Origin: Acidobacteriota bacterium
GTDB taxonomy: Bacteria > Acidobacteriota > Blastocatellia > Pyrinomonadales > Pyrinomonadaceae
NCBI GenBank assembly: GCA_019242475.1
Contig: JAFAVK010000127.1
Coordinates: 124,001-188,000, forward strand
Reading direction: 5' to 3'
DNA: 64,000 bases
In this document: piece after piece, positions 9,671 to 51,036 of the stretch
Layout: each line of letters begins with the position of its first letter
Numbering within the stretch: the first letter of the stretch is position 1
Made by a program: the position numbers and the translations under genes
The notes under the pieces: model-generated
Databases searched by the model: none
Told to the model about the DNA's origin: nothing
The model's input: the letters and a program-made list of their open reading frames with translations, nothing else

Positions 9671-10632
9671 CCGCCGAAGGCGAGCCGGTAGCGTGCGGTG
9701 AGCGAGAGGCCGAGGCTCAGGACGACGAGGGCGAAGACGACGAAGGGCCAGACGTAAGGGAGCGAGAGGACGGCCGCCCAGGAGGCCGCGCCGAGGAGGA
9801 GTGCGACCGACTCCGAGCGCCGGTCTTCGGGGAGCAGCACGCGCTGGAGCCAGCGCCCCGTGGCGGCGTTGATGACGACGCGGCCGAAGAGGTAGGAGAG
9901 CAGCACGAGCAAGAGCGCCGTCACGCCGACGAGTGCCGCCAGCGCCGGCGGCAGGAAGTGCAGCGCGGAGGTCACGCCCGGCCCCAACAAGAGCGCGCCG
10001 ACCAGCCCGATGAGCGCCACGCGCCCGAGCGTCAGTTGCAAGCGCGCCGCCGCCCGCCCGACCGCGCCCGGGCTCATGGCCGTCAGGGCGATGGAGACGA
10101 TGAACCAGAAGAGCACGGCCATCAGGCGCCAGCCGAGGAACGCGAGCGAAAACTCGGGCGTCAAAATCGAAGCGGGGTTGCGCGCGAGGTTCCGCAGCTC
10201 CTCCTCGTAGCCGGCGTACATCAGCGTCTTCCCCGCCGGCCCGCGCCCGCCCCCCTCGTTGCGGTACTCCCCGCCGAAGACGATCACGTCGCCGCCGACG
10301 TGCGAGCCGTTGAGCTGCACGACCGACCCGCCGACGGCCGCCGCGTCGCCCTCGACGCGCCCTTCCACAATCACGTCGCCGCCGAAGGCGATGACGCCGC
10401 GCACGTCGCCGCGCACGCGCACGCTCCGCCCCAACCCGAACACGTCGCCCGCCTGCCGCCCCTCGATCACCAACTCCTCGCCCTTCGCCGCGTCCTGCCC
10501 ATTGACGACCGCCGGGAAAGCAAAAGGCAAAAGGCAGAAGGCAAAAATCAAAAGGGTGAGGCATCGCGGGGCGCGAAAGACTGCGCCTTCACTTTTGCCT
10601 TTTGCCTTCTGCCTTCTGCCTTCTGCCTTCAT
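9658..10632 (-). CDS. Bactofilin-like/polymer-forming membrane protein
   Basis: About 324 residues. The N-terminus is a signal peptide encoded by the heptamer array at 10518-10631 (basic n-region, then a hydrophobic core containing FAFCLLPFAF). Residues about 50-110 form repeated G-D-V/G-G-D-V turns typical of the beta-helical polymer-forming (bactofilin-like) fold. The C-terminal half has four to five transmembrane helices (from about 155). It lies directly downstream of the ECF sigma/anti-sigma pair and is probably co-transcribed, suggesting an envelope-stress target. The start at 10632 is set by the upstream stop at 10707 and lacks a clear ribosome binding site. Confidence 0.75.
   Translation of the reverse strand: MKAEGRRQKAKGKSEGAVFRAPRCLTLLIFAFCLLPFAFPAVVNGQDAAKGEELVIEGRQAGDVFGLGRSVRVRGDVRGVIAFGGDVIVEGRVEGDAAAVGGSVVQLNGSHVGGDVIVFGGEYRNEGGGRGPAGKTLMYAGYEEELRNLARNPASILTPEFSLAFLGWRLMAVLFWFIVSIALTAMSPGAVGRAAARLQLTLGRVALIGLVGALLLGPGVTSALHFLPPALAALVGVTALLLVLLSYLFGRVVINAATGRWLQRVLLPEDRRSESVALLLGAASWAAVLSLPYVWPFVVFALVVLSLGLSLTARYRLAFGGRQK
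10518..10631. repeat. Inverted heptamer array that encodes a signal peptide
   Basis: Left arm about 10518-10555 (GCAAAAG/GCAGAAG units), right arm about 10588-10630 (CTTTTGC then three CTTCTGC units). Read on the minus strand, the right arm encodes basic residues (AEGRRQKAKGK) and the left arm hydrophobic ones (FAFCLLPFAF), so together they form the export signal of the 9658-10632 protein. Confidence 0.9.
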
Positions 10633-11992: not shown

Positions 11993-12637
11993 TCAGGGGC
12001 GGCCCGCCGCCGCCGCGCCGGGCTGCGCCGCCGGCTGCGCGGGCGAGAGTTCGAGCGCCTTGCGGACGCCGGCGCGGATCATCTCGGTGACGTGCTGATT
12101 GTAGCCGCGCACGCGCAGGACGACGTGGCCGTCCGCCGCCACGACGAACGTCTGCGGGATGGGGAAGGAGCCGGGGCGCGTCGGGTTCGTGTTCCAGGTC
12201 GCGAGCGCCAACACCGTCTCCTTGTCGATCCAGCCGACGCGGTAGCTCATCCCCAGCTCGCCCACGAACGCGCTCACCGTCTCCGAACTCTCGTCGGGGT
12301 CTTCGGCCGTCAGCCCGACGAACTCGACGCCGCGCGCGCGGTAGTCCTGGTAGATTTTGTTGAAGCCCGGAATCTCCAGCCGGCACGGCCCGCACCACGT
12401 CGCCCAGAGGTTGACGACGTAGACGCGCCCGCGGAAGTCTCTGAGGCGGAACGCGCGCCCCGACAGGTCGCGCAGCTCGCGCCCGGTCACCTCTTCGGGC
12501 AGGAACTTCGGCGCCTCGACCGTGGCGGCCGTCTGCGCCGTCGCGTGCGACGACAGACAGAGGATGAAAGGCAGAAGGCAAAGGGCAAAAGGCAAAAGGC
12601 AAAAGTGTGGACGCGCTGACGCGCGAAGAACTTTCAT
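11993..12637 (-). CDS. TlpA-like exported thioredoxin-fold protein
   Basis: A 214-residue protein with a signal peptide whose hydrophobic core (CLLPFALCLLPFILCL) is encoded by the heptamer array at 12564-12604. The mature part is a thioredoxin/AhpC-TSA (TlpA/ResA) domain with the active site WCGPC at about residues 82-86 and a cis-Pro region near 157-160 (SFPIPQTFV). It probably reduces disulfides or supports cytochrome maturation in the periplasm. A Pro/Ala-rich tail ends the protein. The start ATG at 12637 has no strong ribosome binding site. Confidence 0.85.
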   Translation of the reverse strand: MKVLRASARPHFCLLPFALCLLPFILCLSSHATAQTAATVEAPKFLPEEVTGRELRDLSGRAFRLRDFRGRVYVVNLWATWCGPCRLEIPGFNKIYQDYRARGVEFVGLTAEDPDESSETVSAFVGELGMSYRVGWIDKETVLALATWNTNPTRPGSFPIPQTFVVAADGHVVLRVRGYNQHVTEMIRAGVRKALELSPAQPAAQPGAAAAGRP

Positions 12638-12696
12638 TAGTTTTTGCGCCTTGTCTTCATTTTTGCCTTTTGCCTTTTGCCCTTTGCCTTCTTCAG
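12564..12696. repeat. Inverted heptamer array (GCAAAAG family)
   Basis: Left arm 12564-12606 (tandem GCAAAAG-type units), right arm about 12654-12693 (tandem CTTTTGC-type units). The left arm lies inside the TlpA-like coding sequence and encodes its signal peptide core. The right arm ends at the TGA stop of the PilM-like gene at 12693. Confidence 0.9.
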
Positions 12697-31186: not shown

Positions 31187-31275
31187 GAAGTATGAACGAT
31201 GAATGATGAGTGATGAATGATGAATATGATGACGAAGACATATTCACCATTCATCACTCATCATTCATCACTTAT
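31187..31275. repeat. Inverted heptamer array (ATGAATG/TGATGAA)
   Basis: Left arm about 31190-31232 (GATGAATGATGAGTGATGAATGATG), right arm about 31243-31272 (CATTCATCACTCATCATTCATCAC). The right arm encodes the last residues and TGA stop of the metallo-hydrolase gene at 31261. Related arrays occur at 50962-51035 and 53165-53194. Confidence 0.9.
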
Positions 31276-38226: not shown

Positions 38227-40509
38227 TTAACCCCTTCCCCTGCGCCGCCGCGCGCCGCGCGCGCGAGGTCTGACGTTTCTGTTGCGTTCCTGTTGCGGCC
38301 CGGCGCCCGCGCCGCCCTCGTCCGCGAAACGCACGGTCGCGCCGCTGGGCGGCCGCGGTATCGAGACGGCGACGAAGGGCGAAGTCAGAGCCTGCGTTGT
38401 AAAGCTTCCGGACGCCGGCCGCCGCTCGCTCACGGTGACTGCAAGCACAGTGCCAATCCGGTTGATGCCGGTGATCTCGATGCTGTAACCGCCGGTCGGC
38501 TTCTGCCCCTGGTACGCGACGACCACGGCGCGCGTATCGAAGCTGACCTCGGGCAGCGGGCGCCCCGCGCCGACGACCTCCCAGGCGCGGCGCCAGGCGG
38601 CCTCGTCCGTGATTAACTCGACCGCGCGCCCGCCCTCGCGCGCGCTCATCGTCCCCGTGGCGAGCAGAGAGAACTCGACGGGCTTCGCCTCTTCGGTCGA
38701 GCCCTGGGGGCCCGTCTCGGACGCCCGCGCGGCGTCGCCGCCGAGCATCGCCATGCGCAGAATCTTGACCGGCGGCATGCCGTAGCTGAGCAGCCGGTCG
38801 TGAAAGTCTCCGAGGCGGAACGAGTCGCCGAGCTGCTTCTTCCACTCCTCGCGCAGGCGCAGAATCTCCATCTTGCCGAGCGTGTAGACGAGATAGGTCG
38901 GGTCGAGAGTCCCGCGCCGCGCCTCGCGCTCGGCGTTGGTGCGCGCCTGGTAGCCCTCGCGCATGAAGAAGTTGACGGCCTCCTCGTAGCTCATCCCCGC
39001 CGTGTGCAGACGCAGTCCCACGACGTACCGGCACAGACGGAGGAGCGCCGCGTCCAGCTGCGCGAGCCGCAGCTTCGGGTTGTTGCCGCCGAAGCCTTCG
39101 TCCAACATCATCTGCTCGCAGTAGTGCGCCCAGCCCTCGACGAAGCTGGCCGAGCCGAGCGCCGCGCGCACGCGCGAAGGCGACTGCCGCGCCTTGAGCA
39201 TCTGGTAGTAGTGGCCGGGGTACGCCTCGTGGATGGAGGTGATGGTCAGGCCGTAGCGGTTGTAGTGGCCGAGGTGCTCCTCCTGCTGCTGCGGCGTCCA
39301 GGAGGGGTCGGCGGGCGTGACGTAGTAGTAGCTCTCGTCGGCCGCGCGCTCGAAGGCGCCGGGCGCGTCGAGCGAGGCGAAGGAGAGCGAGCGCGCGTAC
39401 TCGGGCGTCTCGGCCACGCGCAGGTTCTCGCGCGCCGGCGGCGTCAGAATCCCTTCGGTGCGGACGAAGGCGCGGATGCGGTCTAAGTCGGCGCGCGCCT
39501 CGCCGACGAGCCCGTCCGAAGTCGGGTGCTCGCGCGCGAGCAGTTGGAGCGCGGCCAGCACGCCGCGGCCCGGCGCGATCTCCTCGGCCACGGCGCGCAT
39601 CTGGTCTTGAGTTTCACGCAGCTGCCGCTCGCCCTCGCGCAGGAGCGCGGGCAGCGGCGTTTCGATCATCTCCTCGTAGAGAAGTTTCTTCCGGAAGTTC
39701 TCGGCGCCGAGCGCGAAGTCGCCGTTCGAGCGCGGGAGCAGGTCGCCCACGAGCCACTCGCGGAAAGCACGGAGGGCGGCCGCGGCCTGCGCGTTCGCCT
39801 CGTGGAACTCTGCGCGGCGTGCGGCGTCGAGCTGGCTGCCGCCGGCGCGCTCGAACATCTGCGGCACGACGCGCTCGAAGAAATCGACGCTGCCGGCGAC
39901 CTGCGCGACGGCCGTCTCGGTGTAGATGCGCGGCGGGTTGTCGAGATTGGCGCGCGCCTCGGCGAGCAGGCGCGGAATCTGCCGCTCGCGCGCGAGCACC
40001 GCGGGCAGGCGCTGCTCGACGGGCGCGTAGGCGCGCTTGAGGATGTTGTCCACCCCCGAGGCGACGAGGCGGTTGTAGAGGTTCGGGTCGCGCCGCCACA
40101 TCCGCACGTCTTCGAGTTCGAGCAGCTGCGCGCGCGCGTGCGACTGGATGACGAGGTAGTCGTAGCGCGCCTCGGGCGACAGGCGCCACTCGGGCACGCG
40201 CGCCAGCTCCGCGAGCACGCCGCGCAGCCGCCGCGCCTCGGCCGCGACCGCCGCGGAGTCGCGCTCCTCAAGCTTCGAGTCGAACTCGTGCAAGCCCGCG
40301 GCCGTCGCCTCCGAAGGGTTGAAGGCGTAGTAGCCGCGCAGGTACGCCTCGCCGATCTGCGCGACGCGCGCGTCGGACATGCGGTTCGCCGCGGACGCGC
40401 CCGCGACCGAAGGGCGCCGGCGCCGCTGCGCCGCCGCCGCACCGCCGCACGGCCACACCGACGCGCAGACGACGAGCGCGCAGAGAAACGCGGGAAGCTT
40501 CCTTCTCAT
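38227..40509 (-). CDS. DUF885-family exported protein fused to a PrcB_C-like domain
   Basis: About 760 residues. It has a signal peptide (about 1-29), a DUF885 domain (about 50-570; conserved ITSIHEAYPGHYYQ with an HExxH-like HEAYPGH motif, and SFVEGWAHYCEQMML) and a C-terminal beta domain (about 620-735; VVVAYQGQKPTGGYSIEITG ... TSPFVAVSIPR) that matches the PrcB C-terminal fold. Relatives of DUF885 are exported zinc peptidases. The tail is strongly Arg-rich. The ATG at 40509 opens the signal peptide; 37 upstream codons in frame are not convincing. Confidence 0.85.
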   Translation of the reverse strand: MRRKLPAFLCALVVCASVWPCGGAAAAQRRRRPSVAGASAANRMSDARVAQIGEAYLRGYYAFNPSEATAAGLHEFDSKLEERDSAAVAAEARRLRGVLAELARVPEWRLSPEARYDYLVIQSHARAQLLELEDVRMWRRDPNLYNRLVASGVDNILKRAYAPVEQRLPAVLARERQIPRLLAEARANLDNPPRIYTETAVAQVAGSVDFFERVVPQMFERAGGSQLDAARRAEFHEANAQAAAALRAFREWLVGDLLPRSNGDFALGAENFRKKLLYEEMIETPLPALLREGERQLRETQDQMRAVAEEIAPGRGVLAALQLLAREHPTSDGLVGEARADLDRIRAFVRTEGILTPPARENLRVAETPEYARSLSFASLDAPGAFERAADESYYYVTPADPSWTPQQQEEHLGHYNRYGLTITSIHEAYPGHYYQMLKARQSPSRVRAALGSASFVEGWAHYCEQMMLDEGFGGNNPKLRLAQLDAALLRLCRYVVGLRLHTAGMSYEEAVNFFMREGYQARTNAEREARRGTLDPTYLVYTLGKMEILRLREEWKKQLGDSFRLGDFHDRLLSYGMPPVKILRMAMLGGDAARASETGPQGSTEEAKPVEFSLLATGTMSAREGGRAVELITDEAAWRRAWEVVGAGRPLPEVSFDTRAVVVAYQGQKPTGGYSIEITGINRIGTVLAVTVSERRPASGSFTTQALTSPFVAVSIPRPPSGATVRFADEGGAGAGPQQERNRNVRPRARGARRRRGRG

Positions 40510-40642
40510 GAAGCGGAACACCCTCGGAAGAGCCGGGCGCGCAGGCCAAACGCCCGTTGAAGGGAGACGAAGAGCGGGAGCAAGATTAGCATAAAAGAAA
40601 AGCACGCGTGCAATCGTCAATTACACGTACGCAACTGCTGAT

Positions 40643-40894
40643 GTGACGCATGACAACGCTATTGTGACGCGCCACAACGCCACTGTGACGCGTCGCAATG
40701 GCGTTGTGGCGCATGACAACGCCATTGCGACGCATGACAACGCTAATGTGATGCATGACAACGCCACTGTAACGCGTCCCAATGGCGTTGCGATGCGTCA
40801 CAATGGCGTTGTCACACTTCACACTGGCGTTGTCATGCGTCGCAATGGCGTTGTTGCGCGCCGCATCGCCAATGTCGCGCGTCACATTAATTGA
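40643..40894. repeat. Palindromic 21-bp tandem array, 12 units, open on both strands
   Basis: Twelve degenerate units of 21 bp (three heptamers each), consensus GTGACGC/ATGACAA/CGCCATT or its reverse complement, arranged in mixed orientation. A 252-bp ORF on plus starts GTG and encodes repeats like VTHDNAI, VTRRNGV, VMRRNGV. Minus also stays open over about 300 bp and encodes similar NAIATHD and NGVVMRH repeats. It lies between the start of the DUF885 gene and the end of the next gene. It is not known if either ORF is translated. Confidence 0.9.
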
Positions 40895-40931
40895 AGGGTG
40901 TGCGTAAATCGGCCGCGTCAGCGGCGATTGC

Positions 40932-41654
40932 CTACTCCGTCGGGGCTATTTTTTCCCGGAGCCAGCGGGCGGGCTCGTCGAGGGGGGCGATGTGGTGCGG
41001 CTTACCCTGCCAGACGCGGATCATCGAGACGACGAGGAAGATGGTCGCGGCCAGGCCGAAGAGCACGCTGCCGAAGCCGCTGCCCGAGGCGAGGGCGACG
41101 AACCTGAAGAGCACCGAGATGGCGATGATGGCTAGGTGCAGCGCGAGCCCCTGCGCGGCGTGGAAGCGCACGCGCGCCTCCTGGCTCGGCACCATCGCCA
41201 GCTCGATGAGCGACGCGATCAGCCCGATGTAGAAGGGGGCGTAAGGGAGCATCACCGCGAAGTTCTCCGGAATCCCCAGCCGCGCGACCGGGCGCGAGGT
41301 GGGGGCGGCGCCGTGCGGCGCGTGCGGCGGGCCGGGGTATGGCGAAGAGGGGCCGGGCGGCGGCGCCGAAGTGGCCGCGGGCGGCTGGTGGGGGCCGGCG
41401 CCGAAGGTGGTGAAGGGCTGCGGCTGCGACGGTCTCGGCGGCTGGTACGCGGGCGGGACGAAGACCGAAGGGTACGAGTCGGCCGGCTGCTCGTCGAAGC
41501 GGCGCGTCGGCTCCTCCGTGACTGAGTCGCGGCGGGACTGATCGGCCTCTTCCGGGCGCGGCGCGCGCGCGGCGCCCCACAAATTCTCCTCCGTGCGGCG
41601 CACGAAGTCCGGGTCGAGCGGGTCGGTGTCGTACTTGCTCCTCTTCTCCGTCAT
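40932..41654 (-). CDS. DUF4870-like membrane protein with Pro-rich N-terminus
   Basis: A 240-residue protein. The first 120 residues are polar, rich in Pro/Ser/Ala (repeated PP and PYPGPP), then three hydrophobic segments (about 129-155, 168-190, 194-213; LPYAPFYIGLIASLIELAMV, RFHAAQGLALHLAIIAISVL), typical of the DUF4870/Tic20-like family with the conserved RFHAAQ motif. Function unknown. Confidence 0.75.
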   Translation of the reverse strand: MTEKRSKYDTDPLDPDFVRRTEENLWGAARAPRPEEADQSRRDSVTEEPTRRFDEQPADSYPSVFVPPAYQPPRPSQPQPFTTFGAGPHQPPAATSAPPPGPSSPYPGPPHAPHGAAPTSRPVARLGIPENFAVMLPYAPFYIGLIASLIELAMVPSQEARVRFHAAQGLALHLAIIAISVLFRFVALASGSGFGSVLFGLAATIFLVVSMIRVWQGKPHHIAPLDEPARWLREKIAPTE

Positions 41655-42629: not shown

Positions 42630-44444
<1,815 letters not shown>

Positions 44445-44466
44445 GATTCCTTTACGTCACCTTCAA

Positions 44467-45888
44467 CTACTTCGCGGCACCGTTCAAAGCTTCACTTAAC
44501 TCTGCGCCGGCCTGTTCACGTTTCAACGTCCGCTGCTCGCCGGTCTTCATATCTTTCAACGCGACCTCGCCGCGCGCGCGCTCGTCGTCGCCGATGACGA
44601 CGACGAAGGGCACGCCGAGCGCGGAGGCGTACTTGAGCTGCTTGCCGAGCTTGTCCGCCTCGGGGTAAACGCCCACGCGCAGAGCCGGCGCGCTCTTTCT
44701 CAACTCGGCGGCGAAGGCGAGCGAGTCTTTAACCGACTCCTCATTCCAGACCGTCACCAGCACGTCGGCCGACGCGCGGCCCACCTTCTCGGGGAACATC
44801 CCGCGCTCGGTCATCACAAGGACGATGCGGTCAAGCCCGAGCGAGAATCCGCACGCCGTGATCTCTTTACCGGAGAACATCCCGACGAGGTTGTCATACC
44901 GCCCGCCGCCGCCCAAAGACCCGGCCAGGTCGGGCACGCTAATCTCCATAATCGCGCCCGTGTAATAAGAGAGCCCGCGCGCGATGCTCGGGTCAATTTT
45001 AATTTTGTCGGCGACGCCGTAGGCATCAGCGTATTCGACGATGGCGCGCAGGTTCTCAATGCCGAGCGCGCCGGCGTCGTGGCCGCTGACGAACTCGACG
45101 AGGCGGCCGAGCGCGGCGTGGTTGTAGGCTTCGGCACGCGTTCCGCCTTTGATGTCTAGAGTTTCATCAGCGATTAATTCTGCTGCGTGTTCCAATTCGG
45201 GCAGTGTCTCGAAGAAGTCGAGCAACCGCCCGCCGGCATCGGCGTCGAGGCCGCGCGCGTCGAACTCGCGCGCGACGCCTTCGCGGCCGATCTTGTCGAG
45301 CTTGTCGATGGCAACGAGCGCATCCCCCTGTTTGTCCGCCGCTACGCCTGCCGCTTCGAGCACGCCCGCCAGCACCTGCCGGTGGTTCAGGCGAATCGTG
45401 AAGTTGTCGAAGCCGAGCGTGCGGAGCACGTCGCTCGCCGCGGCGCAGATTTCCGCCTCGACGACGGGCGAGCGCGTGCCGATGCAGTCCACGTCGCACT
45501 GGTAGAACTCGCGGTAGCGGCCGCGCGCGGGGCGGTCGGCGCGCCAGACGGGTTGAATCTGGTAGCGCTTGAAAAACTTGGGCAGCCGTTCGCCGTACTC
45601 CGCGACGACGCGCGCGAGCGGCACCGTCAAATCATAACGGAGCGCGAGGTCGGCCTCGCCCGTCTTCTCGTGCTCGCCCCGCTTGAGGATTTTGAAGATG
45701 AGCTGGTTGCCCTCCTCGCCGTACTTCCCCATTAAGGTCTCGATGTTCTCGACCGCGGGCGTCTCCAAAGGCTCGAAGCCGTAGCGCTCGTACACGTCCT
45801 TGATGACGCGAATGACGTACTCGCGCCGCCGCAGGTCGGCCGGGAGGAAGTCGCGCATGCCGCGCGCGGGCTGTGTCTTTGCAGGCAT
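44467..45888 (-). CDS. hisS: Histidyl-tRNA synthetase
   Basis: A 473-residue class II enzyme with N-terminal GMRDFLPADLRRREYVIRVI, motif 2 FFKRYQIQPVWRADRPARGR and FYQCDVDCIG, HisA-like motif ARGLSYYTGAIMEI, and GGGGRYDNLVGMF. The C-terminal anticodon-binding domain (DVLVTVWNEES) is complete. It is slightly longer than typical (about 420-430) because of an extended middle region. It is the first gene of the hisS-aspS-dinB-like-JAMM run. Confidence 0.97.
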   Translation of the reverse strand: MPAKTQPARGMRDFLPADLRRREYVIRVIKDVYERYGFEPLETPAVENIETLMGKYGEEGNQLIFKILKRGEHEKTGEADLALRYDLTVPLARVVAEYGERLPKFFKRYQIQPVWRADRPARGRYREFYQCDVDCIGTRSPVVEAEICAAASDVLRTLGFDNFTIRLNHRQVLAGVLEAAGVAADKQGDALVAIDKLDKIGREGVAREFDARGLDADAGGRLLDFFETLPELEHAAELIADETLDIKGGTRAEAYNHAALGRLVEFVSGHDAGALGIENLRAIVEYADAYGVADKIKIDPSIARGLSYYTGAIMEISVPDLAGSLGGGGRYDNLVGMFSGKEITACGFSLGLDRIVLVMTERGMFPEKVGRASADVLVTVWNEESVKDSLAFAAELRKSAPALRVGVYPEADKLGKQLKYASALGVPFVVVIGDDERARGEVALKDMKTGEQRTLKREQAGAELSEALNGAAK

Positions 45889-49628: not shown

Positions 49629-50963
49629 ATGACTCGTCATGAAAGTGATGCGGTAGGAAGTCGCGGGCTCGCGCGGCGGCTGGGTCTGTTCGACGCGACG
49701 ATGATCGTGATGGGCGGCATCGTCGGCTCGGGCATCTTCATCAACCCCTACGTCGTCGCGCGGCAGGTGCACACGCCCTTCCTCATCCTCGGCGCGTGGC
49801 TCGCGGGGGGCGCGGTCGCGCTCGCGGGCGCGTTCGTCTACGCCGAGCTGGCCGCGCGGCGCCCCGAAGTCGGCGGGCAGTACGCGTACCTGCGCGAGGC
49901 ATTCCACCCGGGCGTCGCGTTCCTCTACGGCTGGGCGCTGCTGCTCGTCGTGCAGACGGGCGGCATGGCGGCGGTCGCCGTCACCTTCGCGCGCTACTTC
50001 TCCGAGCTGACCGGCGCGAACTTGCCCGACTGGGTGACGGCCGCGCTCACGCTCCTGCTGCTCACCCTCGTCAACTGCCTCGGCGTGCGCGCGGGCAGCA
50101 ACGTGCAGAGCCTCTTGATGGTCTTGAAGATTCTGGCGGTGGCGGCGCTCGTCGCGTGCGGGCTCTTCGCGGTCGCGGAGCCGCACGCGCTGACGGGAGG
50201 GCCGCTGCTCGACCGTCCCGCCTCTCCGGGACTGCTCGCGGCCGCGGGCGCGGCGCTGACGCCGGTGATGTTCGCGTACGGCGGCTGGCAGACGGCGAGC
50301 TTCGTCTCGGGCGAGATGCGCGACCCGCGGCGCGACCTGCCGCGCGGGCTGCTCCTCGGCGTGTGCGGGGTGATCCTGCTCTACGTGCTGGTCAACGTCG
50401 CCTGCCTGCGCGCGCTCGGCACGGAAGGACTGGCGGGGACGAAGACGCCCGCGACCGCCCTGATGCGCCTCGTGCTCGGCGAGCGCGGCGCTTTGCTCAT
50501 CGCGGCCGGCATCGCCGTCTCGACGCTCGGCTTTTTGAGTCAGAGCATGCTGACGGCGCCGCGCGTCTACTTCGCGATGGCCGAGGACGGACTCTTCTTC
50601 CGCGGCGTCGCGCGCGTGAACTCGAAGACGCGGGCGCCCGTCGCGGCCATCGCGTTGCAAGGGTTCTTCGCCGCCGTCATCGCCGCCTCGGGCCGCTACG
50701 AGCAGATCCTCAACTACGTCGTCTCCGTTGACTTCATCTGGTTCGGACTGACGGCCCTCTCGCTCTTCGTCTTCCGCCGCCGGGACAACGGCGACGCAGG
50801 CTTCCGAGTCCCCGGCCACCCCTTCACGACCGCGCTCTTCGCCGCCGCCTGCGCCCTCATCGTCGCGGCCACCTTCTACCACGACGCCTTCAACAGCGCC
50901 CTCGGCCTCGCCATCCTCGCCACCGGCGTCCCGGTCTATTTCCTGTGGAGCAAAAGGAAGTGA
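49629..50963 (+). CDS. APC-family amino acid permease
   Basis: A 444-residue membrane protein with 12 predicted transmembrane helices and the APC signature GGIVGSGIFINPY near the first helix (about 29-41). A second conserved segment is ARRPEVGGQYAYLREAF (about 76-92). Likely an amino acid transporter or exchanger; substrate cannot be said. It begins 56 nt after the peptidase gene with the AT palindrome between. Confidence 0.9.
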   Translation: MTRHESDAVGSRGLARRLGLFDATMIVMGGIVGSGIFINPYVVARQVHTPFLILGAWLAGGAVALAGAFVYAELAARRPEVGGQYAYLREAFHPGVAFLYGWALLLVVQTGGMAAVAVTFARYFSELTGANLPDWVTAALTLLLLTLVNCLGVRAGSNVQSLLMVLKILAVAALVACGLFAVAEPHALTGGPLLDRPASPGLLAAAGAALTPVMFAYGGWQTASFVSGEMRDPRRDLPRGLLLGVCGVILLYVLVNVACLRALGTEGLAGTKTPATALMRLVLGERGALLIAAGIAVSTLGFLSQSMLTAPRVYFAMAEDGLFFRGVARVNSKTRAPVAAIALQGFFAAVIAASGRYEQILNYVVSVDFIWFGLTALSLFVFRRRDNGDAGFRVPGHPFTTALFAAACALIVAATFYHDAFNSALGLAILATGVPVYFLWSKRK

Positions 50964-51036
50964 TGAATGATGAATGATGAATGATGAATTAAGACCGTAG
51001 CAATATTCATCATTCATCATTCATCATTCATCACTT
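50962..51036. repeat. Inverted heptamer array (GATGAAT)
   Basis: Four tandem GATGAAT units (50963-50991) and the inverse four ATTCATC units (51005-51034) around a 13-nt core. It lies between convergent genes and begins at the stop of the permease gene. Confidence 0.92.

Follow-up and report, generated by a model that had tools for sequence, protein, structure and literature searches.

The array and its surroundings

The window, the whole stretch of 64,000 nucleotides that was analyzed, lies in contig C105 of genome G000, a draft genome of 145 contigs that is about 91% complete. It contains an array of 21-bp near-palindromic units between two genes on the minus strand (Table 1). The first-pass annotation had described about twelve such units in mixed orientation, and they are real; worn units reach back to about position 40605. 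The identity at a lag of 21 nt is 0.71, while dinucleotide shuffles give 0.25 +/- 0.035. The best period of the array is 21 bp; lag 7 stays under the threshold, and a tandem arrangement of 7-bp units was not found. When the unit consensus ATTGTGACGCGTCACAACGCC is compared with its cyclic reverse complement, 18 of the 21 positions agree, while random 21-mers have a mean of 11 and a 95th percentile of 14. The orientation of a unit is given by its 7-bp/5-bp center, which is either ACGCCAT or ATGGCGT, and the orientation string of the array is rRRRFRRRFFFFR, with cores at 40613, 40634 ... 40865.

Table 1. Features in and around the array (positions within the window).
Feature	Positions	Strand	Remarks
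Flanking gene, DUF885 + PrcB_C protein	38227..40509	-	start lies beyond the array
Minus reading frame, 99 aa	40586..40885	-	by-product of the repeat, not a gene
Weak terminator-like stem, then CGTGCTTTTC	40607..40627	-	located at the array's far edge
Array: twelve near-palindromic units of 21 bp	40642..40893	.	7+7+7: TGTGACG CGTCACA ACGCCAT/ATGGCGT
Left part, mostly C-centered (R, AACGCCATT-type) units	40642..40780	.	from the orientation string
Plus reading frame, 83 aa	40643..40894	+	GTG start; not a gene, but a consequence of the repeat
Long inverted repeat	40684..40886	.	two arms of 99 nt (40684-40782 and 40788-40886) with 82% complementarity
Right part, G-centered (F, AATGGCGTT-type) units	40781..40852	.	
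Second dispersed repeat element (TGTGCGTAAATCGGCCGCGTCAGCGGCGATTG; GTGCGTAAATCGGCCGCGTCAGCGGCGATTG)	40887..40930	.	abuts the array
Flanking gene, DUF4870-like (below Pfam cut-off)	40932..41654	-	ends 39 nt from the array

As RNA, the minus strand of the array together with its flanks is predicted to form a single long and very stable stem (about -208 kcal/mol, z -13.9); a structured RNA had been one of the options offered in the first-pass annotation. A significant U-tract terminator was not found at the array (one stem, compared to 1.1 expected in shuffles), and a search of the array against Rfam returned only microRNA hairpin models far below the gathering score. A CRISPR locus was ruled out, because the repeats differ among themselves and the linkers are alike and have 12 nt, rather than being unique spacers.

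The second dispersed element, which abuts the array (query 487-531), has short matches in the genomes G003, G017, G026, and G039. The window contains four other arrays, at 10516-10630, 12567-12690, 31192-31272, and 50961-51033, which consist of heptamers followed by their reverse complement. Their motifs are GCAAAAG/CTTCTGC, AAAGGCA/TTTTGCC, ATGAATG, and TGATGAA/ATTCATC; the purine-rich arm always comes first, and they are situated near stop codons.

Coding potential

It had been proposed that the array might be a gene for a protein of heptapeptide repeats. The one open frame per strand on which this proposal was based is present as claimed. However, the two frames are not independent pieces of evidence, because it is one register (core AAY-GNC-RTT) that is read on both strands of a near-palindrome. 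Openness is also expected from the composition: both frames are still open in 88% of the column shuffles of the window units, and the register contains 3 and 3 stop codons in 204 units from 14 arrays, compared to 3.4 and 4.5 expected from column-shuffled units. The variation between units likewise argues against a gene. In the plus frame its entropy is 0.50 bits at the first codon position, 1.13 at the second, and 0.69 at the third, and thus highest at position 2, and the ratios of synonymous to non-synonymous codon changes are 10:37 and 3:46. No Shine-Dalgarno sequence was seen before either start, and Pfam had no match for the frames of the array. In the close relatives G001-G004 the frames are absent, the array sequence being missing from the orthologous gap; a frame that is lost in close relatives had been named in the first-pass annotation as grounds for refutation. 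One sister array does code for heptapeptide repeats, within a glycosyltransferase gene, and its coding register differs from the frame that had been proposed for the window. A protein gene at the window locus is thus highly improbable, and the coding reading is rejected. More generally, the array would be a warning that, when the period of a repeat is a multiple of three, openness of both strands says little in favor of a gene.

A family of arrays in one genome

The window array is one member of a family, of which at least 14 loci were found in G000. BLAST found the repeat of the window at ten other places, and a search with a two-unit pattern (AAYGNCRTT-N(11-13)-AAYGNCRTT) added loci on contigs C70, C79, C89, and C94. 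This pattern has 97 matches in G000, while the control with a reversed core has none. Across the phylum (396 genomes) the family is nearly absent, a few members excepted; the other genomes have 0 or 1 matches, like the control. True arrays of the family are also present in G001 and G014, and G003 contains a worn form. The consensus of 202 units from 14 arrays is CGTCGCAAYGSCRTTGCGACG, and a unit consists of the AAYGNCRTT core, with a 5-bp center that flips, plus the arms. Exact segments of 30-39 bp are common to different array loci, which suggests copying between arrays.

The geometry of the 21-bp arrays is more widely shared than their sequence. In the approximately 440 kb of G000 that were scanned, several more 21-bp arrays were found, the units of which are unrelated in sequence, but near-palindromic in most cases, e.g., TATTCCGTCTCGGAGGCGGAA, AAACATTCCGGTTCCGAACCG, and GGCATTCCCACGCGTGGGAAT, and locus L027 carries a near-palindromic 21-bp array (CACAAGTCACTTGTGAGCCCT) that is unrelated in sequence to the AAYGNCRTT family. 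This diversity, exemplified by CACAAGTCACTTGTGAGCCCT, TATTCCGTCTCGGAGGCGGAA, and AAACATTCCGGTTCCGAACCG, argues against the view that the arrays are phased binding sites for a dimeric DNA-binding protein, and so do the heptamers that relatives have in place of the window array. The strict spacing of 21 bp, equivalent to two helical turns, and the palindromic core in almost all arrays of the family would be in agreement with binding sites, but on balance we regard this explanation as improbable.

Covariation, center flipping, and polarity

Covariation was analyzed with the 202 units from 14 arrays, using permutation within arrays. In hairpins centered on the core the arms covary at positions 5, 6, and 7 from the center (z 6.7, 4.1, and 2.2), and in hairpins centered on the linker the facing arms covary, too (z 8.0 and 4.5). 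The central 5-mers occur in near-equal inverse pairs, namely, TGGCG (39) and CGCCA (36), TGCCA (28) and TGGCA (22), and TAGCG (10) and CGCTA (9). C-centered units are located before G-centered units in 13 of the 14 arrays (R before F, z 4.7). This order is the same when read on either strand, and every array can therefore be described as an inverted repeat whose polarity is fixed. Blocks of the same orientation beyond this polarity were not significant (75 switches versus 83.6 +/- 5.8).

The covariation around both centers fits better to fold-back copying than to one conserved RNA. Template switching predicts covariation at every palindromic center as well as flipping centers, and both were observed, whereas a single selected RNA would favor one center. 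It has been described that template switching homogenizes the arms of inverted repeats and inverts their spacers (PMC8604942), and that it can create and maintain hairpins (PMC8794818). Slippage of the polymerase with a quantum of 7 nt has been proposed to explain the abundance of heptamers, and 21 is three times 7. If fold-back copying is indeed the source, compensatory base changes, which are usually taken to prove that an RNA structure is selected, may come from mutation alone, because here they were found around two different hairpin centers of one repeat.

Orthologous sites in related species

Five loci were compared between species, and at each of them the array is absent or replaced in relatives. 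The gap of the window contains different purine-rich or TTTTCAG-type heptamer arrays in G001, G002, G003, and G004, in each of which the first half is followed by its reverse complement. At locus L053 a CCACAGAGACACGGAGGCACGG hairpin is present in G003 and a GGATGAA hairpin in G001, and at L017 a different hairpin was found in each of G003, G002, G001, and G004. The array of 307 bp at L023 is situated exactly within a run of AATCCGC heptamers; G003 and G004 keep the run without the array, and there is no hairpin at this site. The fifth array, L024:1962-2230 (G000:C110:75861-76129), is in frame within P0001, a gene for a PMT_2-type glycosyltransferase. It lengthens the protein by about 90 residues, which form heptapeptide repeats in a loop with conserved flanks (81-87% with G003). 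The loop has no array in G003, and in G001 it contains a GGGAGAC-like heptamer array.

The first-pass annotation had considered the array to be possibly a domesticated form of heptamer arrays. A relationship in kind is borne out by the heptamer hairpins at the same gap in four relatives and by the family array within the AATCCGC run, while "domesticated" was not upheld. Matched species pairs with unrelated hairpins in one gene gap would make it testable whether intergenic hairpins of bacteria are selected terminators or merely tolerated. At two convergent gaps of G003 (L187 and L193) the 21-bp array is replaced by hairpins of a CCACAGAGACACGGAGGCAC-type repeat. A dispersed element with the ends ATACCGACTTGC...GCAAGTCGGTAT was seen at L029 (G003:C97 about 44300-44600), L196, and L055:1526-1570; in G003 and G004 it is nested within hairpins of the heptamer type, and in G000 it abuts a 21-bp array.

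The clean absence in relatives, together with the dispersed, species-specific occurrence and the exact segments shared between loci, would also be expected if the arrays were a mobile palindromic element of the REP or MITE type that is copied by a transposase, and ACACAAGT motifs lie close by on both sides of some same-core arrays in Nostoc. Nevertheless, this origin appears unlikely. The REP-associated tyrosine (Y1) transposase (PF01797), which defines only the GTAG type, had no match in G000 at its completeness of about 91%, while 9 of the 12 genomes searched, relatives included, had matches, and mobilization by a RAYT was rejected because no transposase was found in G000. The flanks of the arrays share matches of only 14-27 bp and no common terminal repeat was found in them, and no target duplication was seen at the clean L023 junction. 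A MITE was rejected on the basis of the missing shared terminal inverted repeats in the flanks and the missing target-site duplication at that junction.

Genomic location and a possible role at 3' ends

G000 and G003 contributed five contig stretches to the survey of genomic location, for which genes were called by a crude codon-usage script. Stems of at least 18 bp were found in 50 of 60 convergent, but only 31 of 69 divergent gaps (p 9e-6); the fractions are 82-85% for convergent and about 37-58% for divergent gaps, although the latter are longer. Arrays with a period of 7 or 21 are depleted between divergent genes, with 2 of 69 gaps compared to 57 of 328 non-divergent gaps (p 0.001). In co-directional gaps the arrays were not nearer to the upstream stop (42%, p 0.32).

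This distribution, the different hairpins that the species have at the same gap (window, L017, and L053 loci), and folding energies with z values of -7 to -25 are in agreement with a function as bidirectional transcription terminators or mRNA 3' stabilizers, in which case selection would hold a long intergenic hairpin while its sequence turns over freely. Hairpin clusters without U-tracts have been proposed to be terminators (PMC8355165). However, the window array is devoid of a significant U-tract terminator, and avoidance of promoters alone would yield the same bias in location. An obligatory terminator is also spoken against by the array inside a translated gene and by the L023 sites of G003 and G004, which have no hairpin. 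The main rival explanation is a selected role at 3' ends; we consider it possible, though tentative, and it may be compatible with a mechanism of slippage and template switching.

The explanation that we favor, and regard as probable, is that the window array represents one copy of a palindromic satellite that is non-coding and specific to the lineage, is made by slippage and fold-back template switching, and is sited where a hairpin is tolerated or useful. Near-palindromic 21-bp (3 x 7) units would expand in tandem by slippage. Template switching at inverted repeats during replication would continually rewrite the units, making the arms complementary again and inverting the short center. The arrays would seed and persist mostly in gaps at the 3' ends of genes, where a hairpin may be tolerated, or might even be of use as an insulating or bidirectional 3'-end structure, and in congeneric species such gaps would be filled with other hairpin arrays. 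Several observations stand against this explanation: the R-before-F polarity is not predicted by simple template switching, one array is located within a translated gene, arrays in co-directional gaps show no preference for the upstream stop, and arrays with the same core in other phyla are left unaccounted for.

A more far-reaching version, which we view as rather doubtful, would be that genes of this lineage have the hairpin at their 3' end as an interchangeable part. Selection would maintain only its length, its strand symmetry, and its fixed polarity, its sequence would be replaced repeatedly by whichever 7- or 21-bp family amplifies in the respective species, and the 21-bp arrays would be bidirectional 3'-end structures that renew themselves by slippage and template switching.

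Comparison with known repeats and other phyla

Several known repeat systems resemble the arrays in some respects. The small dispersed repeats (SDR) of Nostoc, reportedly described by Elhai et al. in 2008, are said to have 21-27 nt, to show compensatory changes, and to occur within heptamer arrays and minitransposons. The size, the compensatory changes, and the occurrence in heptamer arrays are shared, but SDR are reported as single dispersed units, and from a different lineage, in contrast to the long tandem arrays described here. Rickettsia palindromic elements are single palindromic repeats that occur between genes and in frame within protein genes. The array at L024, in frame within P0001 and missing in relatives, is similar in behavior and is set beside them by description; again, tandem 21-bp arrays differ from single elements.

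Known heptanucleotide tandem repeats include the STRR of cyanobacteria, GGGAATC/GGGGATT in Xanthomonas and Nostoc (PMC4692102), and TAACTGA in Beggiatoaceae (PMC4679880). Like them, the arrays are intergenic, dispersed, species-specific, and tandem with a 7-bp quantum, and in relatives the same gaps contain heptamer arrays. However, the former are direct repeats of one heptamer, while the 21-bp units are near-palindromic, only 63-78% alike, and have flipping centers. REP and BIME (PMC3733652) are also short extragenic palindromes with many copies that form hairpins and are sometimes clustered. In contrast to these, the arrays are continuous with 21-bp units, have no unpaired GTAG or CGTC tag, and are not accompanied by a Y1 transposase in G000. 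The CGTC-like positions of the units are arm positions facing GACG, and they are variable (C 0.81, G 0.64, T 0.52, and C 0.64). Homogenized arms and inverted short spacers are also features of the quasipalindrome products of template switching (PMC8604942, PMC8794818), but these are single inverted repeats, and not dispersed tandem satellite arrays of fixed polarity.

A three-unit pattern with the same core has 108 matching stretches in Nostoc, Bacteroidales, Verrucomicrobia, and others. A homologous family across phyla was considered, but not upheld. In a same-core search of 295 Bacteroidales only two genomes matched, one of which was the chosen center, and the three-unit search with the reversed control core TTRCNGYAA had 46 matches in the Bacteroidales genome G604, which represent another 21-bp array family. 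The results thus do not demonstrate that the core is special. Convergence is as likely, and common descent is not established, because unrelated cores also build such arrays. In Nostoc, 21-bp arrays (CAATGSCATTG + 10 nt; L072, L108, and other loci) are located between ACACAAGT and ACTTGTGT motifs, an arrangement that is minitransposon-like.
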